From contig CABYHH010000006.1 in the NCBI GenBank assembly GCA_902518835.1, positions 1 to 53,413 on the forward strand: DNA of 53,413 nucleotides, given 5' to 3'. A model generated the notes under the pieces. It was not told the DNA's origin. It did not search any database and worked only from the letters and a program-made list of their open reading frames with translations. Below are positions 5,106 through 33,379 of this stretch, in pieces. Source of the DNA: an uncultured Pelagibacteraceae bacterium. GTDB lineage: Bacteria; Pseudomonadota; Alphaproteobacteria; Pelagibacterales; Pelagibacteraceae. Positions within the stretch are counted from its first letter, which is position 1, and every line of letters starts with the position of its first letter. Made by a program: the position numbers and the translations under genes.

Positions 5106-6238
5106 AAAAAATTTTTGTACTCACGGGTGAACCTTCAGGAGATAAATTAGCGTCAACAGTAGTTAATAAACTTCAACAAAAACATTCTGATATAGAATAT
5201 TTAAGTGTTGGAGGATCACATTTAAACAAACTTGGGGTCAAATCAATATATGATCTTAAGGAGATAACTTATATTGGATTTACGAGTGTCATCTTAAATT
5301 TGTTTAAAATTAGAAACAAAATAAACGAAACTGTAAAAAGGATAATTGAATTTAATCCCAATATTCTATTTAGTGTAGATAGCCCAGATTTTACTTTAAG
5401 AGTTGCTGAAAAAGTAAAAAGTATCAATCCTAATATTAAAACAATACATTATGTTGCACCACAAGTATGGGTATGGCGAGAGGGTAGGGTTAAGAATTTT
5501 AAAAACTTTTTAGACCATGTTCTGCTATTATTTAATTTTGAAAAAAAATATTTTGATAAAGAAAATATTAAAAACACTTTTGTTGGTCACCCCTTACTTG
5601 AAAATAAAGAAAATAGTAAAACAAATTTATCAAATATAATTGATGACAATAAAAAGATTATATCTTTATTTGCTGGAAGCCGAACATCTGAAACGAATAT
5701 TCTTTTACCAATCTTAATAGATTTTATTAAATTAATGAATGAAAAATTCAACGAATATAATTTTATTTTTCATACAACTGATCAAAATAAAGATTTGATA
5801 AAAGGCGAGATTAAAAAAACATATTTAGATAATGTTGAAGTGATATCAGAGGAGAATATAAAATCACAAATTTTATCAAACTCAGTATTTGCTGTGGCGA
5901 AATCTGGAACTATTTCCCTTGAAATCTGTAATGCAAAAATCCCATCTATCATAATTTATAAAATGAATTTTATAAATTTTTTTATTGTAAAATTTTTAGT
6001 TAAGACAAAATTTGCAAATATAATTAATATAATTAACCAAAAAGAAATAATTCCAGAATTAATTCAAAATGAGTGTAATTCAAAAGAAATTTTTAGATCT
6101 GTAGTATACTTTTTAAAAAACCCCGAACTTATGAAAAAACAAATCCTCGATGTGAATAATACTTTAAACGAGATCAAATCTAAAACTTCATCATCATCAG
6201 AAGCCTCAGACGTAGTTTCAAGCTATCTCAGCACTTAA
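5102..6238 (+). CDS. lpxB: Lipid-A-disaccharide synthase LpxB
   Basis: LpxB joins lipid X and UDP-2,3-diacylglucosamine into the lipid A disaccharide at the inner membrane. The 378-residue GT19 glycosyltransferase begins with the diagnostic TGEPSGDKLAS. It contains SVDSPDFTLRVA, the HYVAPQVWVWREGR block, and the C-terminal nucleotide-binding region with LFAGSR and AKSGTISLE. It is the last gene of the plus-strand envelope operon. Its last 21 bases overlap the 3' end of gltX on the opposite strand, a convergent overlap with no room for a separate terminator. Confidence 0.96.
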   Translation: MKKIFVLTGEPSGDKLASTVVNKLQQKHSDIEYLSVGGSHLNKLGVKSIYDLKEITYIGFTSVILNLFKIRNKINETVKRIIEFNPNILFSVDSPDFTLRVAEKVKSINPNIKTIHYVAPQVWVWREGRVKNFKNFLDHVLLLFNFEKKYFDKENIKNTFVGHPLLENKENSKTNLSNIIDDNKKIISLFAGSRTSETNILLPILIDFIKLMNEKFNEYNFIFHTTDQNKDLIKGEIKKTYLDNVEVISEENIKSQILSNSVFAVAKSGTISLEICNAKIPSIIIYKMNFINFFIVKFLVKTKFANIINIINQKEIIPELIQNECNSKEIFRSVVYFLKNPELMKKQILDVNNTLNEIKSKTSSSSEASDVVSSYLST

Positions 6239-22205: not shown

Positions 22206-23993
22206 ATGATTGATTTTTTGAGAAAAAATATTTTCATTTTAATAATATCTAGTATCACACTATTTATTGGTTTTTTAACATTTTTAACATTTATAGATAG
22301 AAGTTTTATAGAATTAAATCCGAATAACTTACAATATTTATTAATTTTAAATATATTGTTACTTTTTTTATTATTTGTCTTTATCTTCAATGAAATAAAA
22401 AGATCTATCAAGAGCGATATTGATAAAGATGGTCTTTCATCGAACAAAAGATACATTACTTACTTTTCACTTTTCACTTTGATACCTTCTATCTTAATTT
22501 CAATTTTCTCATTATTTCTTTTTTCTTTTGCTTTAGAAAAATACTTTGATAAAAAAGTTACAACGGTTGTAAATAATTCTTATGAATTAGCTAAAAGTTA
22601 CGTTGAAGAAGTTAGGAATAAAATTGAGGCAGATATTATTTTAATTGCTTTTGATACGAATAAAAGTGTCAATTTTCTCAATGATAATATTAATGAATAT
22701 TTAAGATTTCTTAAAACTCAAAAATTAATTAGAGATGTTGATGAAATACATATAATTGATAAAAATAAAAATCTTCTTTTTTCTTCTGAAGCGGAAAAAA
22801 ATTATATACCACCAATTGATAAAGCTTTGAATTTAGTTCTAGATGATGATCGTCCTTTAAAAATTATTAACGCACCAGCAAATATTTCAGCAGCGATTAT
22901 GAGATTACAAGCATTTGAGGATAGGTTTTTATATGTCGTAAAGTTTTTAGACAAAAATATCTCAAATTATCTTTCTGAATCACAGGAAGCTATTAGTTTT
23001 TATTATACAGTTGAGGAAAGAAGTACAGGAATTAAAATTTCTTTTGCTTTAATCTATATAATTATTGTATCTCTATTATTATTTGTTTCAATAAATATAG
23101 CAATACGATTTTCCTCAAGATTTTTTAGATCAATAAATAATTTAATTTTAGCCTCATCTGCCATCGGTCGAGGAGAATTAAATACTAAAGTCCCAGAAAT
23201 TAAAACAGATAAAGATATGGAGATTTTGAATAAAAATTTTAATTTAATGACAGATAAATTAAAATACCAGCAAGAAAAACTAATAATTAACGAAAGACAT
23301 GAGGCTTGGGGAAATTTAGCAAGAAAATTAGCACATGAAATTAAAAATCCATTGACACCTATACAATTAACTATTGATAGAATAAAATCAAAATACTCAA
23401 ATCATATTTCAAAAATAGATAAAGAGAATTTTGAAGAAAATCTGAAAATAATCAATACTCAAATAAAACAAATAGAGAATCTAGTTAATGAGTTTTCGGA
23501 TTTTGCTAGGATGCCCAAACCTGTTTTAAAGGACAATGATTTAATTGATATTTTGAACGACAATATAAAATTATTATCAGAGTTAGATAAATCTATTGAA
23601 ATTAATTTTGTGAAAAACAAAGATAAAATTTTCCTTAATTGTGATAAAGAGCAGATCGGTAGAGTTTTTTTTAATCTAATTAAGAACTCAATAGAAAGTA
23701 TTCAACAAAAATGTGAAAAAAATTCAAGTTTTACGAAGAAAATATTGATTGAAATACTTGATAACAGTGATCATATAAAATTCATATTAGTAGATAATGG
23801 TATTGGTTTTGATAAAATAAAGAATAACATAAAGGAAATTTTGAACCCATATTTTACTACCAAAAAAAATGGAACTGGGTTAGGTTTATCAATAGTAAAC
23901 AAGATTGTAAATGATCACAATGGAAAGCTTGATTTTTTTCCATTATTAGATGGTGTGAAGATAGAAATAAGTTTTGAAGTACATGACAGTTGA
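22206..23993 (+). CDS. ntrY: Sensor histidine kinase NtrY
   Basis: Membrane sensor kinase of 595 residues. Two membrane spans lie near the N-terminus (about 10-30 and 44-62), a third at 86-110, then a periplasmic domain and a fourth span at about 278-300. A HAMP domain follows (about 300-350). The phospho-acceptor is His377 in LARKLAHEIKNPLTP. The ATPase domain carries N (LIKNSIES), G1 (DNGIGFD) and G2 (GTGLGLSIVNKI) boxes. Only about 20 residues separate HAMP from the His box, so the PAS domain usual in NtrY is missing. The cognate ntrX overlaps its end. The likely role is nitrogen- or redox-linked regulation. Confidence 0.93.
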   Translation: MIDFLRKNIFILIISSITLFIGFLTFLTFIDRSFIELNPNNLQYLLILNILLLFLLFVFIFNEIKRSIKSDIDKDGLSSNKRYITYFSLFTLIPSILISIFSLFLFSFALEKYFDKKVTTVVNNSYELAKSYVEEVRNKIEADIILIAFDTNKSVNFLNDNINEYLRFLKTQKLIRDVDEIHIIDKNKNLLFSSEAEKNYIPPIDKALNLVLDDDRPLKIINAPANISAAIMRLQAFEDRFLYVVKFLDKNISNYLSESQEAISFYYTVEERSTGIKISFALIYIIIVSLLLFVSINIAIRFSSRFFRSINNLILASSAIGRGELNTKVPEIKTDKDMEILNKNFNLMTDKLKYQQEKLIINERHEAWGNLARKLAHEIKNPLTPIQLTIDRIKSKYSNHISKIDKENFEENLKIINTQIKQIENLVNEFSDFARMPKPVLKDNDLIDILNDNIKLLSELDKSIEINFVKNKDKIFLNCDKEQIGRVFFNLIKNSIESIQQKCEKNSSFTKKILIEILDNSDHIKFILVDNGIGFDKIKNNIKEILNPYFTTKKNGTGLGLSIVNKIVNDHNGKLDFFPLLDGVKIEISFEVHDS

Positions 23994-25338
23994 AATATTA
24001 ATAGTTGATGACAATTCAGACATCAGGAATATCTTGAATGATCTAATTATTGATGCAGGTTATAAGACTAGGATTGCCGCTAATTTTAATCAAGCATTAA
24101 GTGAAATTGATAAAAAAATACCCGACATTGCAATTATTGATGTTAAATTAGATAAGGGTGATAACGATGGAATTGAATTACTATCTTACATTAAATCAAA
24201 GAATAAAGATGTGCCTGTAATTATAATCACTGGTCATGCTAATATTGAAATGGCAGTAAATTCTCTAAAGCAGGGTGCATTTGAGTTTGTTGAAAAACCT
24301 TTTGATCAAACAAGATTACTCAATTTTATTAAGAGAGCTATAGAAAATCTGAATTTAAAAAACCAAAATAAGGAATATGAAAATAAATTATTTTCATCCT
24401 ATAAAATTGTTGGAGACAGCAAGAACATACTCAATATTAAAGAACAAATTGATAAGATATCAGTTACTGAAAGTCGTATAATTATAAATGGTCCATCAGG
24501 ATCAGGAAAAGAATTAATTGCAAGAAGTATACATAAAAAATCAAAAAGGCAAAATAAACCATTTGTTATATTAAATGGTGCTTTACTTGACTCAAATAAA
24601 TATGAATTAGAATTATTTGGTGAGGAAAAAGAAAATGGCTCAATTTCTTACGGTGCTTTAGAAAAAGCTAATAAAGGCACATTGCTTATCGATCAGGTTT
24701 CAGAAATACCTTTAGATATACAGTCCAAAATTTTGAGAGTTTTAATTGATCAAAAATTTAAGAGATTGAATGGTAACAATGATATAAAAGTTGATGTTAG
24801 AATTATTTGTTCATCAAGTAAAGATCTTAAAGAGGAAATCAAGTTTGGTAATTTCAGAGAAGATCTTTTTCATAGGTTAAATGTTTTTGAGATTATTGTA
24901 AAACCATTAAATCAAAGAGTTTCGGATATCCCATTACTAATAAAATATTTTTCAAAAAAAATATCGGAAGCTTATAATATAAAAGATCTTCAAATAGATG
25001 AAAATGATAGCTATATTTTAAATCATAATTGGCAAGGCAACGTAAGAGAGTTAAGAAATCTTATTGAGAGAATTGCTATTCTTCAACCTGAGTCAAAGGA
25101 AAAGATATCAAATATTGTAAAAGAATCTTTAAAAACAGTAAATTATTTAGATAAATTTAGAGAAAATGATCTTTCAGTACCTCTTAAGGAAGCCAGAGAA
25201 AAATTTGAAAAAGAATATTTAACAATACAATTAAAAAAATTTAAGGGCAATATTTCAAAAACTGCAAATTTTGTTGGAATGGAGAGAAGTGCTTTACATA
25301 GAAAACTTAAAGGTCTAGGGATCAAAGAATTTAACTAA
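23983..25338 (+). CDS. ntrX: Response regulator NtrX (AAA+ domain degenerate)
   Basis: I choose ATG 23983 (451 residues, MTVEILIVDDNS) over an upstream TTG at 23974; it overlaps ntrY by 11 bases. Domains: receiver with phospho-acceptor Asp53, an NtrC-like AAA+ domain (about 140-370) and a Fis-type helix-turn-helix at the end (NFVGMERSALHRKLK). Walker A is intact (GPSGSGKE, 170-177). The GAFTGA loop that contacts sigma-54 is replaced (GSISYGALEKA), and Walker B reads LLIDQ instead of ending Asp-Glu. It is thus unlikely to work as a classical sigma-54 activator; direct sigma-70-type regulation is inferred. Confidence 0.92.
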   Translation: MTVEILIVDDNSDIRNILNDLIIDAGYKTRIAANFNQALSEIDKKIPDIAIIDVKLDKGDNDGIELLSYIKSKNKDVPVIIITGHANIEMAVNSLKQGAFEFVEKPFDQTRLLNFIKRAIENLNLKNQNKEYENKLFSSYKIVGDSKNILNIKEQIDKISVTESRIIINGPSGSGKELIARSIHKKSKRQNKPFVILNGALLDSNKYELELFGEEKENGSISYGALEKANKGTLLIDQVSEIPLDIQSKILRVLIDQKFKRLNGNNDIKVDVRIICSSSKDLKEEIKFGNFREDLFHRLNVFEIIVKPLNQRVSDIPLLIKYFSKKISEAYNIKDLQIDENDSYILNHNWQGNVRELRNLIERIAILQPESKEKISNIVKESLKTVNYLDKFRENDLSVPLKEAREKFEKEYLTIQLKKFKGNISKTANFVGMERSALHRKLKGLGIKEFN

Positions 25339-26734: not shown

Positions 26735-28141
26735 ATGTTTAGATTGCAACTAAAATATTTAAGTTTTTTTTTTGGAATTATTTCAATATTGTCATTTTTT
26801 AATATTATTTATTCTTTTTATTTTAACCTATATCTAAACTTAGACACTTATTATCTCACATTTTTAATCTCTTTAATTTTATTAATATTTTTTTATAAAA
26901 TAAAATTAGAAATTAAAAAGATAACTATATTTGATAAGATCATTACTGTATTTTTAGGATATCTATTAATTCCGTTGATATTATCAATCCCATTTTATTT
27001 TAGTATATATAACATAACTTTTATAAATTCTTATTTTGAGTCAATTTCAGGCTTTACATCTACAGGATTTACAATTTTTGAAAATATTAAACATATTGAT
27101 CAAAGCCTAATCCTTTGGCGGTCATCGACCCAATGGATTGGTGGACTTTATTTTTTATTTTCAATAATATTTTTGATTGATATTTATGACGAAAGTTTTA
27201 AAAAAACTTTGACTAATTTTATTTCATTTAATAATTCAGAAGTTTTAAAACAAACACTCAAAATTTTTTTTATATATTCAGGTATAACTTTTTTAATTTT
27301 TATAATTTTGAATATTTTGTCTTTAAGAGCCTTTGACTCATTAAACCTAGCTTTGTCATTAATCTCATCTGGGGGTTTTTTACCCACTAATACCTTATCG
27401 AGCATCTTAAAAGAAAATTTTCAAATTATTGCGATTTCAATCTTGATGCTTTTTTCATTTTTTAGTATTTTTTTTAGTTATAATCTTGTTTTTTTTAAGA
27501 AAAAAAATATAAATTTTCTTTATGAGGATCTTCATCTTTTAATTTATTTAATTGCTGTAGTTTTTATTTTTTTTCTATTTTTTAGTTTTAATAGAGATTT
27601 TTCAAATAACCTCTTATCCATATCAAGCAGTATCTCAAATATAGGTTTTTCAATAAAAACGGACAAATCGAATTTAAGTTTTATTTTCTTGATTTTAGTA
27701 ATTATTGGAGGTTCTTTTTTTTCTACAAGTTCAGGATTGAGATTCATTAAAATTTATTCATTATTTAAGTATTCAATAAATCAAATTTTATCATTCAGTA
27801 GACCTAAGAATATTTTTATGAATAAATTAATTTTTACCAAAATAAATTTTGATTTTGAGGAAATAAATAAATATTTTTTAACAATCTTAATATTTATCTT
27901 ATCCCTTTTTATTTTATCCTCTTTGTTAGGGCTTAATGGAATAGGATTTGAAAATTCATTTAAATTATCAATTCTAACATTGATGAATACAGTTAATTCT
28001 TCAATTTATGGTTTAGGTGATTTTGACTTTAATAATCTTCAATTTTTCACAAAATATACACTCATTTTATTTATGATTATAGGCAGGATAGAATTGTTAA
28101 CAATTTTACTATTGATAAGAAAATTTCTTTTAAAAAATTAA
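26735..28141 (+). CDS. trkH: Trk potassium uptake channel TrkH
   Basis: Integral membrane potassium transporter of 468 residues, close to the family's usual 480, with around ten or more hydrophobic segments. The first pore loop is recognisable as SISGFTSTGFTIF, with the selectivity-type glycine in STGFT. Later pore-loop remnants are SSGGFLPTN, SNIGFSI and NTVNSSIYGLG. Adjacent WRSSTQWIGGL is also typical of TrkH/TrkG/KtrB. It forms the K+ uptake system with TrkA and ends 30 bases before tRNA-Arg. Confidence 0.94.
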   Translation: MFRLQLKYLSFFFGIISILSFFNIIYSFYFNLYLNLDTYYLTFLISLILLIFFYKIKLEIKKITIFDKIITVFLGYLLIPLILSIPFYFSIYNITFINSYFESISGFTSTGFTIFENIKHIDQSLILWRSSTQWIGGLYFLFSIIFLIDIYDESFKKTLTNFISFNNSEVLKQTLKIFFIYSGITFLIFIILNILSLRAFDSLNLALSLISSGGFLPTNTLSSILKENFQIIAISILMLFSFFSIFFSYNLVFFKKKNINFLYEDLHLLIYLIAVVFIFFLFFSFNRDFSNNLLSISSSISNIGFSIKTDKSNLSFIFLILVIIGGSFFSTSSGLRFIKIYSLFKYSINQILSFSRPKNIFMNKLIFTKINFDFEEINKYFLTILIFILSLFILSSLLGLNGIGFENSFKLSILTLMNTVNSSIYGLGDFDFNNLQFFTKYTLILFMIIGRIELLTILLLIRKFLLKN

Positions 28142-28171
28142 TTAATTATTGTATACGTATTAACTCAAATT

Positions 28172-28248
28172 GCGCCCTTAGCTCAGCTGGATAGAGCATC
28201 GGTTTTCTAAACCGAGGGTCGGAGGTTCGAATCCTCCAGGGCGCGCCA
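28172..28248 (+). tRNA. tRNA-Arg (anticodon UCU)
   Basis: The 77-base cloverleaf has acceptor arms GCGCCCT/AGGGCGC, discriminator G and encoded CCA. The D arm is GCTC-GAGC. The anticodon stem is TCGGT/ACCGA with loop TTTCTAA, giving anticodon TCT, and the T arm GGAGG-TTCGAAT-CCTCC is perfect. It reads AGA/AGG, and AGA is the dominant Arg codon in these AT-rich genes. It lies between trkH and the aap operon on the same strand. Confidence 0.96.
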
Positions 28249-28344
28249 TAATTGTCCAATTTAGGTTTCTTTTTTAGAAATATATACGTAATTGTTATTA
28301 AATTCTTCTTGCAGCGAATTTTTTATCATGGTTAAGTTATGTTT

Positions 28345-28365
28345 ATTCAAAACACCGTTTTGAAT
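28345..28365. promoter_or_regulatory. Inverted repeat upstream of aapJ (9-base arms, 3-base centre)
   Basis: ATTCAAAAC-ACC-GTTTTGAAT is a perfect inverted repeat with nine-base arms. It lies 36 bases before the aapJ start codon and has no T-run after it, so it does not look like a terminator. It could be a dimeric-regulator operator or a hairpin in the mRNA leader. Confidence 0.55.
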
Positions 28366-28382
28366 TATTTGTTAACAAATAA
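28365..28382. promoter_or_regulatory. 18-base perfect palindrome before the aapJ ribosome-binding site
   Basis: TTATTTGTTAACAAATAA is perfectly self-complementary with no spacer. It starts at the last base of the preceding inverted repeat and ends six bases before the AGAGGA ribosome-binding site. A symmetric DNA-binding protein site is the simplest reading; chance in AT-rich DNA is possible. Confidence 0.5.
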
Positions 28383-28400
28383 ATAAAAAGAGGAAATAAT

Positions 28401-29441
28401 ATGTTTAAATACGTAAAACAATTGACTTCTTTTGTTGCTATGGTTGCTGTGTTGTTTGCATTTACAACAGAGTCTATGGCTGCGAAGAAATCAAAAACAC
28501 TTAAAAACACTCAAAAAAAGGGTTTTGTAAGATGTGGTGTTTCTCAAGGTCTTCCAGGATTTTCTAACGCTGATGCAGCAGGAAATTGGACTGGTGTAGA
28601 TGTTGATGTATGTAGAGCGGTAGCTGCTGCAGTTCTTGGTGATGCAAACAAAGTTAAGTTTACTCCACTAAGTGCTAAAGAAAGATTTACAGCTTTAACT
28701 TCTGGTGAGATTGATATCTTATCAAGAAACACAACTTGGACCCTCTCAAGAGATGCAGATATTGGACTTACTTTCGTGGGAGTAAATTTCTATGATGGTC
28801 AAGGTTTCATGGTAAGAAAAAGTTCTGGTATTACTTCAACTGGTCAGTTTAAAAATGGTATCTCAGCTTGTACTAACTTAGGTACAACAACTGAGTTAAA
28901 CATGAGAGACTTCTTTAATTCAAAAGGAATTTCTTATGAGCCAGTAACTTTTGAAAAAGCGGATGAAGTTGTTGCAGCATATGATGCTGGAAGATGTGAT
29001 ACTTATACTACTGACAAATCAGGTTTAGCTGCTCAAAGAATTAAATTGAGTAACCCTGATGATCATTTAGTATTACCTGAGACTATCTCTAAAGAACCTT
29101 TGGGGCCAGTTGTAAGACAAGGTGATGCAGTGTGGGAAGACATCGTTAGATGGTCTTTAAACACTATGATTGAAGCAGAAGAATATGGTATTACTTCAGC
29201 TAATGCAGACATGATGAAAACTTCAGATAATCCAGCAATCAAAAGATTAGTTGGTGCTGAAGGTGAAATGGGTGCAGCATTTGGTCTAGATAACGAGTGG
29301 AACTTAAGAATTATTAAACAAGTTGGAAACTATGGTGAAAGTTATAAAAGAAATATAGCTGACACTGGTATTTTACCTGACAGAGGTCCAAATGAATTAT
29401 GGACTAAAGGTGGTATTTTATACGTTCCACCTTCAAGATAA
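28401..29441 (+). CDS. aapJ: General L-amino-acid ABC transporter, substrate-binding protein AapJ
   Basis: Periplasmic binding protein of 346 residues with a signal peptide (basic MFKYVK, hydrophobic core, cleavage near MAA at about residue 28). The solute-binding family 3 fold shows RCGVSQGLPGFS near the mature start, TGVDVDVCRAVAAAVLGD, FTALTSGEIDILSRNTTWT and TTDKSGLAAQR, all typical of AapJ/BztA. It is the first gene of aapJ-Q-M-P and is followed by a strong hairpin, which would leave this subunit more abundant than the membrane parts. Broad uptake of L-amino acids is known for the family. Confidence 0.95.
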   Translation: MFKYVKQLTSFVAMVAVLFAFTTESMAAKKSKTLKNTQKKGFVRCGVSQGLPGFSNADAAGNWTGVDVDVCRAVAAAVLGDANKVKFTPLSAKERFTALTSGEIDILSRNTTWTLSRDADIGLTFVGVNFYDGQGFMVRKSSGITSTGQFKNGISACTNLGTTTELNMRDFFNSKGISYEPVTFEKADEVVAAYDAGRCDTYTTDKSGLAAQRIKLSNPDDHLVLPETISKEPLGPVVRQGDAVWEDIVRWSLNTMIEAEEYGITSANADMMKTSDNPAIKRLVGAEGEMGAAFGLDNEWNLRIIKQVGNYGESYKRNIADTGILPDRGPNELWTKGGILYVPPSR

Positions 29442-29459: not shown

Positions 29460-29491
29460 AAAAAGGGCTAGATTTATCTAGCCCTTTTTTT
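29460..29491 (+). terminator. Strong hairpin with T-run between aapJ and aapQ
   Basis: A 13-base-pair stem (29460-29472 with 29477-29489) closes a four-base loop and runs into seven Ts (29485-29491). The core is AGGGCTAGA/TCTAGCCCT. It has the form of an intrinsic terminator and, because the arms begin with As, could work in both directions. Inside an operon it most likely allows partial read-through and protects the aapJ message from 3' decay. Confidence 0.85.
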
Positions 29492-33010: not shown

Positions 33011-33379
33011 ATGGAAGATAATTTTAATAAGCATTTAGGCAACAAGCTTAAGCTTAGAAGGTTAGCCCTGGGTTTGACACAAACTAAAGTAGCAAAAGCA
33101 ATAAACGTAACATTTCAACAAATCCAGAAATATGAAAAGGGTACAAATGGAGTTAGTTCAATAAGATTATTACAACTTTCAAATTATTTAAAAGTGCCGA
33201 TAAATTATTTTTTTGAGGATTTTTCAGAGTATCTTATCAATTTGGAAAAATCTCAAGAAGGTCATATGAACGTAAATTATAATTTTTTAGTTAAATTATA
33301 TTCTGAGCTCAATGCTGATCAGAAAATAAAGTTTAATAAATCTTTACAAGTTACAAATAATATTTCTAAAGTTGGATAG
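33011..33379 (+). CDS. XRE-family helix-turn-helix transcriptional regulator
   Basis: A 122-residue DNA-binding protein with an N-terminal Cro/C1 helix-turn-helix (about 11-65): KLRRLALGLTQTKVAKAI, then TFQQIQKYEKGTN, a very common form in alphaproteobacteria. The C-terminal half (from about 75) is a short helical tail without a recognised ligand domain. It is preceded by a strong Shine-Dalgarno sequence. Its neighbour, the aap operon, is a possible target, but nothing in the sequence proves it. Its 3' end faces tRNA-Asn on the other strand. Confidence 0.88.
   Translation: MEDNFNKHLGNKLKLRRLALGLTQTKVAKAINVTFQQIQKYEKGTNGVSSIRLLQLSNYLKVPINYFFEDFSEYLINLEKSQEGHMNVNYNFLVKLYSELNADQKIKFNKSLQVTNNISKVG

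Follow-up and report, generated by a model that had tools for sequence, protein, structure and literature searches.

The window, meaning the whole stretch of 53,413 nucleotides analysed here, is SAR11 DNA, from a group that ranks with the most abundant marine bacteria, and it carries a pair of abutting palindromes upstream of the gene aapJ (yhdW). The gene order at the locus is ntrX (23974), trkA, trkH, a tRNA-Arg(TCT) gene, the leader, aapJ/yhdW, two permease genes, an ATPase gene and the gene of an XRE regulator (33011). The features referred to below are as follows.

28172-28248: tRNA-Arg(TCT)
28249-28400: aapJ leader, 152 bases, 22% GC
28309..28314, + strand: predicted -35 hexamer TTGCAG (mostly TTGAAG or TTGATG in relatives), from our own promoter scan of 149 unique leaders with a shuffle control
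28332..28337, + strand: predicted -10 hexamer TTAAGT, 17-nt spacer, from the same promoter scan
28345..28365, + strand: hairpin 1, inverted repeat ATTCAAAAC-ACC-GTTTTGAAT (9+3+9), predicted at or adjoining the transcription start
28365..28382, + strand: palindrome 2, perfect 18-base palindrome TTATTTGTTAACAAATAA
28369..28378, + strand: core TTGTTAACAA of palindrome 2
28389..28394, + strand: Shine-Dalgarno-like AGAGGA, unpaired in the predicted fold
28401..29441, + strand: aapJ/yhdW, periplasmic amino-acid-binding protein (SBP_bac_3)
29460..29489, + strand: terminator-like inverted repeat AAAAAGGGCTAGATTTATCTAGCCCTTTTT, between aapJ and the next permease gene

Base 28365 is common to hairpin 1 and palindrome 2, and six bases lie between the end of palindrome 2 and AGAGGA; the positions, repeat sizes, shared base, 6-base gap and 152-base leader given in the original prediction were all correct to the base. 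The -10 register scored by the promoter script itself was TAAGTT (28333-28338), which adjoins TTAAGT and has an 18-nt spacer. In 80/80 relatives (the best 80 of 586) a perfect stem of 8 bp or longer, three or more of its pairs being G-C, follows aapJ within 110 nt, which makes a short mRNA with one hairpin per end likely; the repeat at 29460-29489 is the probable 3' end of this short aapJ mRNA, and through its stem the ratio of binding protein to permease may be kept high. A second copy of TTGTTAACAA is located 275 bases upstream of the first, at 28094-28103 within the trkH coding sequence, and a perfect 12+2+12 inverted repeat, AATTTATAAAATGAATTTTATAAATT, is located at 5953-5978. The NtrX protein (23974-25338) has ELFGEEKENGSISYGALEKANKG at the site of GAFTGA, the motif carried by sigma-54 activators. 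This replacement fits the report of only two sigma factors in SAR11 in the accessible text of PMC13198564.

Perfect inverted repeats with arms of at least 9 bases and loops of 0-3 bases were counted in the window and in 60 first-order Markov windows. The window had 6, one locus contributing two registers, and the random windows had 4.65 on average (sd 2.4). The loop-0 expectation was 1.05, in agreement with the earlier estimate that a lone 18-base palindrome would occur about once per window by chance. Two neighbouring, non-overlapping repeats within 40 nt were found in 1/60 random windows, so the argument that the pair is harder to dismiss held in part, the pair being only moderately unusual by composition and each palindrome alone being unremarkable. 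Because single palindromes are expected by composition, the case for the feature rests on conservation in relatives; judging from that conservation, the two-palindrome feature is real and under selection.

Conservation and copy number

The genera compared were labelled g1-g13 and the families f1 and f2, g1 being the genus of the window. The outcome that would have refuted the original prediction, that neither palindrome is conserved in orthologous leaders, did not occur, both being conserved across part of the Pelagibacteraceae. The core TTGTTAACAA was present before aapJ in 131/132 g1 leaders that had not been picked by motif, and in the aapJ leaders of g8 (32/32), g9 (5/5) and g12 (1/1), that is, in 169/170 leaders of these four genera, loop bases included; it was absent from the g5-g7 leaders (0/11, genes of at least 60% identity) and from the aapJ leaders of the sister family f2 (0/5). 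In all 105 g1 leaders of one set TTTGTTAACAAA lay 32-42 nt ahead of the start codon and was immediately preceded by a hairpin, this set consisting of the best 80 of 586 relatives and 25 others including the window itself; 100/105 were distinct over 100 nt, and the two source sets may share genomes. A second search for relatives used 30 of 52 matches and a further one 30 of 40. Sixty stretches chosen by motif were kept out of the conservation counts and used in the stem statistics, five distant paralogues (L147, L148, L150, L151 and L153) were left out of the counts, L152 and L233 had no AapJ match, and the counts of change given below are uncorrected for the relatedness of the genomes.

A harder set comprised 44 g1 genomes in which the exact pattern was missing or was found on one strand only. 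It yielded 29 AapJ matches and 27 readable leaders, 26 with the core and one without, L386 and L387 being outside the leader count since they have no 5' end. The single g1 aapJ leader without the core (L385, genome G153) has ATTAATATTAAT before the ribosome-binding site instead. The pattern TTTGTTAACAAATAA was found in 217/397 genomes of the order, mostly once per strand. Six g1 genomes without the pattern also had no AapJ match, and four of these six were likewise without the XRE gene, so assembly gaps may explain the absence; among 16 more genomes with no copy on either strand, 13 had no AapJ match. Different AT palindromes were seen at the same place before the ribosome-binding site in other leaders, namely TTTAATTTAAATTAAA in g5 (L137-L139) and TTTAATTAATTAAA in three of the five f2 leaders (L109, L110 and L112), both within the last 40 nt before aapJ. 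On these comparisons, part of the Pelagibacteraceae appears to share the pair as a single conserved element of the aapJ/yhdW mRNA leader.

A covariance model built from 19 sequences was run on 30 genomes, with 150 candidates scored per genome. One match each, at E <=5.1e-5, was obtained in the 12 g1 genomes carrying the element and in 4 g8 and 1 g12 genomes, where no next match was better than 0.017, and two g9 genomes gave weak aapJ matches (0.008 and 0.009; next best 0.017). The match is known to precede aapJ in 12 of the 17 strong-match genomes and lies directly before aapJ in 14 of the 19 genomes when g9 is included, the others being G066, G070, G071, G072 and G073. The two-part element is single-copy in the genomes tested. 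Rfam searches of the window found only three tRNAs and no family above the gathering threshold, and the aapJ leader searched at E up to 10 gave three matches, all far below threshold.

The core by itself was not enriched genome-wide in 13 genomes: it had 3-10 copies per strand and its reversed control 4-23, the core being the rarer of the two in 11 genomes, as frequent in one and commoner in one. This lack of excess speaks against a genome-wide regulon of the core. Ten other core copies were inspected, eight of which were inside reading frames and two outside, one of the two being the leader of a livK-like binding-protein gene. Among the 30 of 49 livK-like matches used, the core stands directly before the ribosome-binding site, exact in 16/23 g1 leaders, with one change in four, with three changes in two and missing from one, and was found in 0/8 f2 leaders. 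The core before the livK-like gene was noted at L276 (1440-1530) and among L279-L300, where L288 (C32:1613-2800) is that of the window's own genome, which has a one-change core, TTGTTAACTA. A scan of 14 genomes for GTTAACWA followed by GGA and then ATG recovered aapJ in 8/8 g1 genomes and a livK-type string in 6/8, confirmed as a livK-like gene in three genomes; a small number of other strings were each shared by two genomes, and some of these strings may lie inside genes.

Structure of hairpin 1, sequence of palindrome 2 and predicted position in the transcript

Hairpin 1 keeps its shape while its letters are replaced. The arms are ATTCAAA...TTTGAAT in g1, TTTTGAAA...TTTCAAAA or TTTTGAATT...AATTCAAAA in g8, AATTACA...TGTAATT in g9 and TTCAAAAGTT...GACTTTTGAG in g12, and their complementarity was 99% for a leader's own, fitted arms versus 25-58% when arms were crossed between genera. 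A perfect Watson-Crick stem, 6-12 bp long and closing a loop of 3-7 nt, was present in 151/157 unique sequences, the stems being fitted, and the mean best stem score was 7.4-8.7 versus 4.3-4.8 after mononucleotide shuffling. In the window, hairpin 1 folds at -5.5 kcal/mol (z -7.18 versus shuffles). The internal mismatches of the six imperfect stems were four G-U, no A-C and two purine-purine; the 4:0 excess of G-U over A-C inside stems is suggestive only as a sign of the RNA form, and a looser count gave 9:0 inside the stem but 0:11 at the pair just outside.

Covariation was measured in 19 aligned sequences, a gap-free subset picked for the 9+3+9 form and biased towards it. Five of the nine hairpin 1 pairs had changed on both sides with 100% of cells paired, the number of paired cells was above all 500 shuffles, and the covariation score was 0.464 versus 0.160 in shuffles (reached by 0/500) and at most 0.142 when slid. 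Two further measures in the same sequences lay within the shuffles, since most of the change separates g1 from g8 in a single split, namely pairs with double-sided change (7 versus 6.1 shuffled, reached by 176/500) and further pair types (9 versus 9.6 shuffled, reached by 472/500); further pair types were likewise within the shuffles in a separate run with fitted stems (150/500 and 468/500). When 46 leaders were aligned with MAFFT the variable loops were not opened, and pairs were counted in the gap-free subset instead. Stem fitting and the choice of subset favour pairing, the mononucleotide shuffles and the crossing of arms being less biased.

The compensatory replacement of the arms, together with loops of 3-7 nt, argues for a structure rather than a dimeric operator, since a dimeric DNA-binding protein would hardly suit arms at variable spacing. 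Hairpin 1 most likely acts as an mRNA 5'-end structure. The original prediction had offered 'operator(s) or mRNA structure' for the pair; for hairpin 1 the comparison favours structure and speaks against an operator, and palindrome 2 could be either an operator or an RNA recognition site.

Palindrome 2 keeps its sequence. In g1 the positions flanking the core, which had not been used as an anchor, were 0.82-1.00 constant, compared with 0.63 for the promoter stretch and 0.52 for the sequence upstream of that. Between g1 and the other three genera the two flanking pairs have been exchanged symmetrically (TAT/ATA in g1, TA/TA in g8, g9 and g12), and the outer pairs are lost in some g1 species (e.g. 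L096, L105 and L106). As RNA, palindrome 2 alone folds weakly (-3.0 kcal/mol), the lowest-energy fold of the window's full leader pairs it in a shifted register, and the whole-leader z-scores of four species' leaders were only -1.75, -0.59, -1.95 and -1.93. With its unvarying core and weak RNA fold, palindrome 2 is most likely a site recognised by a putative partner, whether as RNA or as DNA.

In 136/149 unique leaders the start of hairpin 1 lies 3-8 nt beyond the predicted -10 hexamer, with a peak at 5-7, compared with 148/745 for shuffled upstream DNA, and the same spacing was found in 106/116 once leaders chosen by motif were removed; a generic promoter scan reported no promoter at the predicted -35 and -10. 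This spacing puts the predicted start on the first base or bases of hairpin 1, and for the window we infer a transcription start at about 28344-28345. For a 5'-terminal stem-loop, compensatory change supports the pairing, and the 5' end is predicted from the place of the promoter only.

Candidate functions of the leader element

The pair is probably best explained as one leader element, in which a 5'-terminal protective hairpin is joined to a sequence-specific recognition site close to the ribosome-binding site; we infer, as parts of this explanation, the start site, the RNA form, the protection from decay, and the existence and identity of a factor. Transcription would begin at the predicted start and place hairpin 1 at the very 5' end of the transcript, where it would guard this abundant mRNA of a binding protein against decay that depends on the 5' end; an added 5' hairpin gives such protection in Escherichia coli. 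Protection from decay is, by analogy, the best-supported known parallel for hairpin 1. The unvarying UUGUUAACAA of palindrome 2 would be bound by an RNA-binding or DNA-binding factor that adjusts output.

A reading of both palindromes as DNA operators, with a dimeric repressor or activator binding the initially transcribed region, seems unlikely to us. Palindrome 2 would suit it, being symmetric, constant in its core and weakly folding as RNA, with two of its six pairs changing together between genera as those of an operator could, but the variable loops and wholly replaced arms of hairpin 1 are unlike a dimer site and the core shows no genome-wide excess over the reversed control. The regulators named in the original prediction, NtrX and the XRE regulator at 33011, found no support. 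The NtrX motifs CAAN2-5TTG and GCAN9TGC are both absent from the window's leader (28249-28400), and an NtrX operator was rejected on this ground; in the 150-nt leaders of relatives CAAN2-5TTG is somewhat commoner than in shuffles (26/105 versus 156/1050). The XRE protein might be a dedicated regulator, but five g5-g7 genomes retain its gene with no core in their aapJ leaders.

We give about the same, rather low, credence to a mixed case that overlaps the best explanation, in which only palindrome 2 serves as a DNA operator, blocking elongation at about +25, and hairpin 1 works in the mRNA as a 5' hairpin. The opposite modes of conservation of the two parts speak for it. Against it, the core of the livK-like leaders is nearer the apparent start and yet likewise, as judged by eye, just before the ribosome-binding site, so a place fixed by translation would fit better than one fixed by transcription.

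An amino-acid-sensing riboswitch or attenuator would account for a conserved, structured leader of an amino-acid importer, but is very improbable for an element that has variable loops and no more than two small hairpins in about 40 nt, in a leader with no terminator-like site and no Rfam match near threshold. That the pair is a terminator of the upstream tRNA-Arg gene, or chance, can practically be set aside: the tRNA end lies 96 nt upstream of hairpin 1 in the window and AT-rich DNA yields single palindromes by chance, but a search for intrinsic terminators (a G+C-rich stem followed by a T run) found 0 in 28150-28450, the element is conserved in four genera, the distance from core to aapJ is kept in 105/105 leaders, and only 17/80 relatives (the best 80 of 586) have a recognisable tRNA end no more than 165 nt from aapJ.

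To return to the protective hairpin joined to a recognition site, the pair points to what may be an undescribed control element of nutrient uptake. A more specific version, which we regard as speculative and on balance improbable, is that UUGUUAACAA is the target of an undescribed post-transcriptional SAR11 regulator acting on the aapJ and livK-like mRNAs, with the 5' hairpin capping the aapJ mRNA. If true, SAR11 would tune amino-acid uptake after transcription, in a lineage for which few transcriptional regulators have been reported. The conserved leader element is in any case a concrete, testable place to look for post-transcriptional control of YhdW. In strain HTCC7211 yhdW is strongly transcribed, with 215 start-site reads and 1791 RNA-Seq reads according to the accessible part of PMC5069720, and the yhd operon is described in the available text of PMC3090418 as more expressed in the dark. 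The accessible text of PMC13198564, a 2025 paper, gives SAR11 relatively few transcriptional regulators, with two sigma factors and four two-component systems, and, citing Smith et al. 2013, describes the YhdW transcript and protein as uncoupled. No description of the aapJ leader element was found in the literature searched, most subscription papers being outside it.

Comparison with known systems

The NtrX motifs given in the part of PMC9223101 that was available are CAAN3-5TTG in Brucella, CAAN2-5TTG in Sinorhizobium and GCAN9TGC in Rhodobacter, and the accessible text of PMC7240162 gave no usable motif. Like NtrX operators, the aapJ palindromes precede a nitrogen-related gene, with ntrX 3 kb upstream; unlike them, palindrome 2 reads TTGN4CAA, in the inverse order, and hairpin 1 reads CAAN9TTG with varying spacing.

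Structured-RNA motifs of Pelagibacter were described by Meyer et al. (2009, PMC2704228), and those in the accessible text include ffh, rpsB, rhtB, pntA, bablM and others. Their table omitted intergenic regions with tRNAs, and their text sets aside regions below 26% GC, so a region like that of the window, with a tRNA gene and a leader of 22% GC, would have been passed over. The aapJ element differs from these motifs in that yhdW is absent from the main text of that paper as available. It resembles them as a short conserved intergenic SAR11 hairpin, some of the motifs likewise standing before transport or metabolic genes.

Stem-loops at the 5' terminus stabilise the mRNAs of E. coli ompA and papA and, in Bacillus subtilis, that of aprE through its leader; to our knowledge, the ompA, papA and aprE leaders have no constant palindromic core. 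According to the accessible part of a review (PMC3997798), bla mRNA becomes more stable when a 5' hairpin is appended to it, and RppH is hindered by a hairpin of this kind. The stem of the aapJ leader differs from these stabilising stem-loops in being AU-rich and short and in being followed by a constant palindromic core, and stabilisation is proposed for it by analogy only; it would be like them in forming a stem-loop at or near the predicted 5' end of the mRNA, upstream of the ribosome-binding site.
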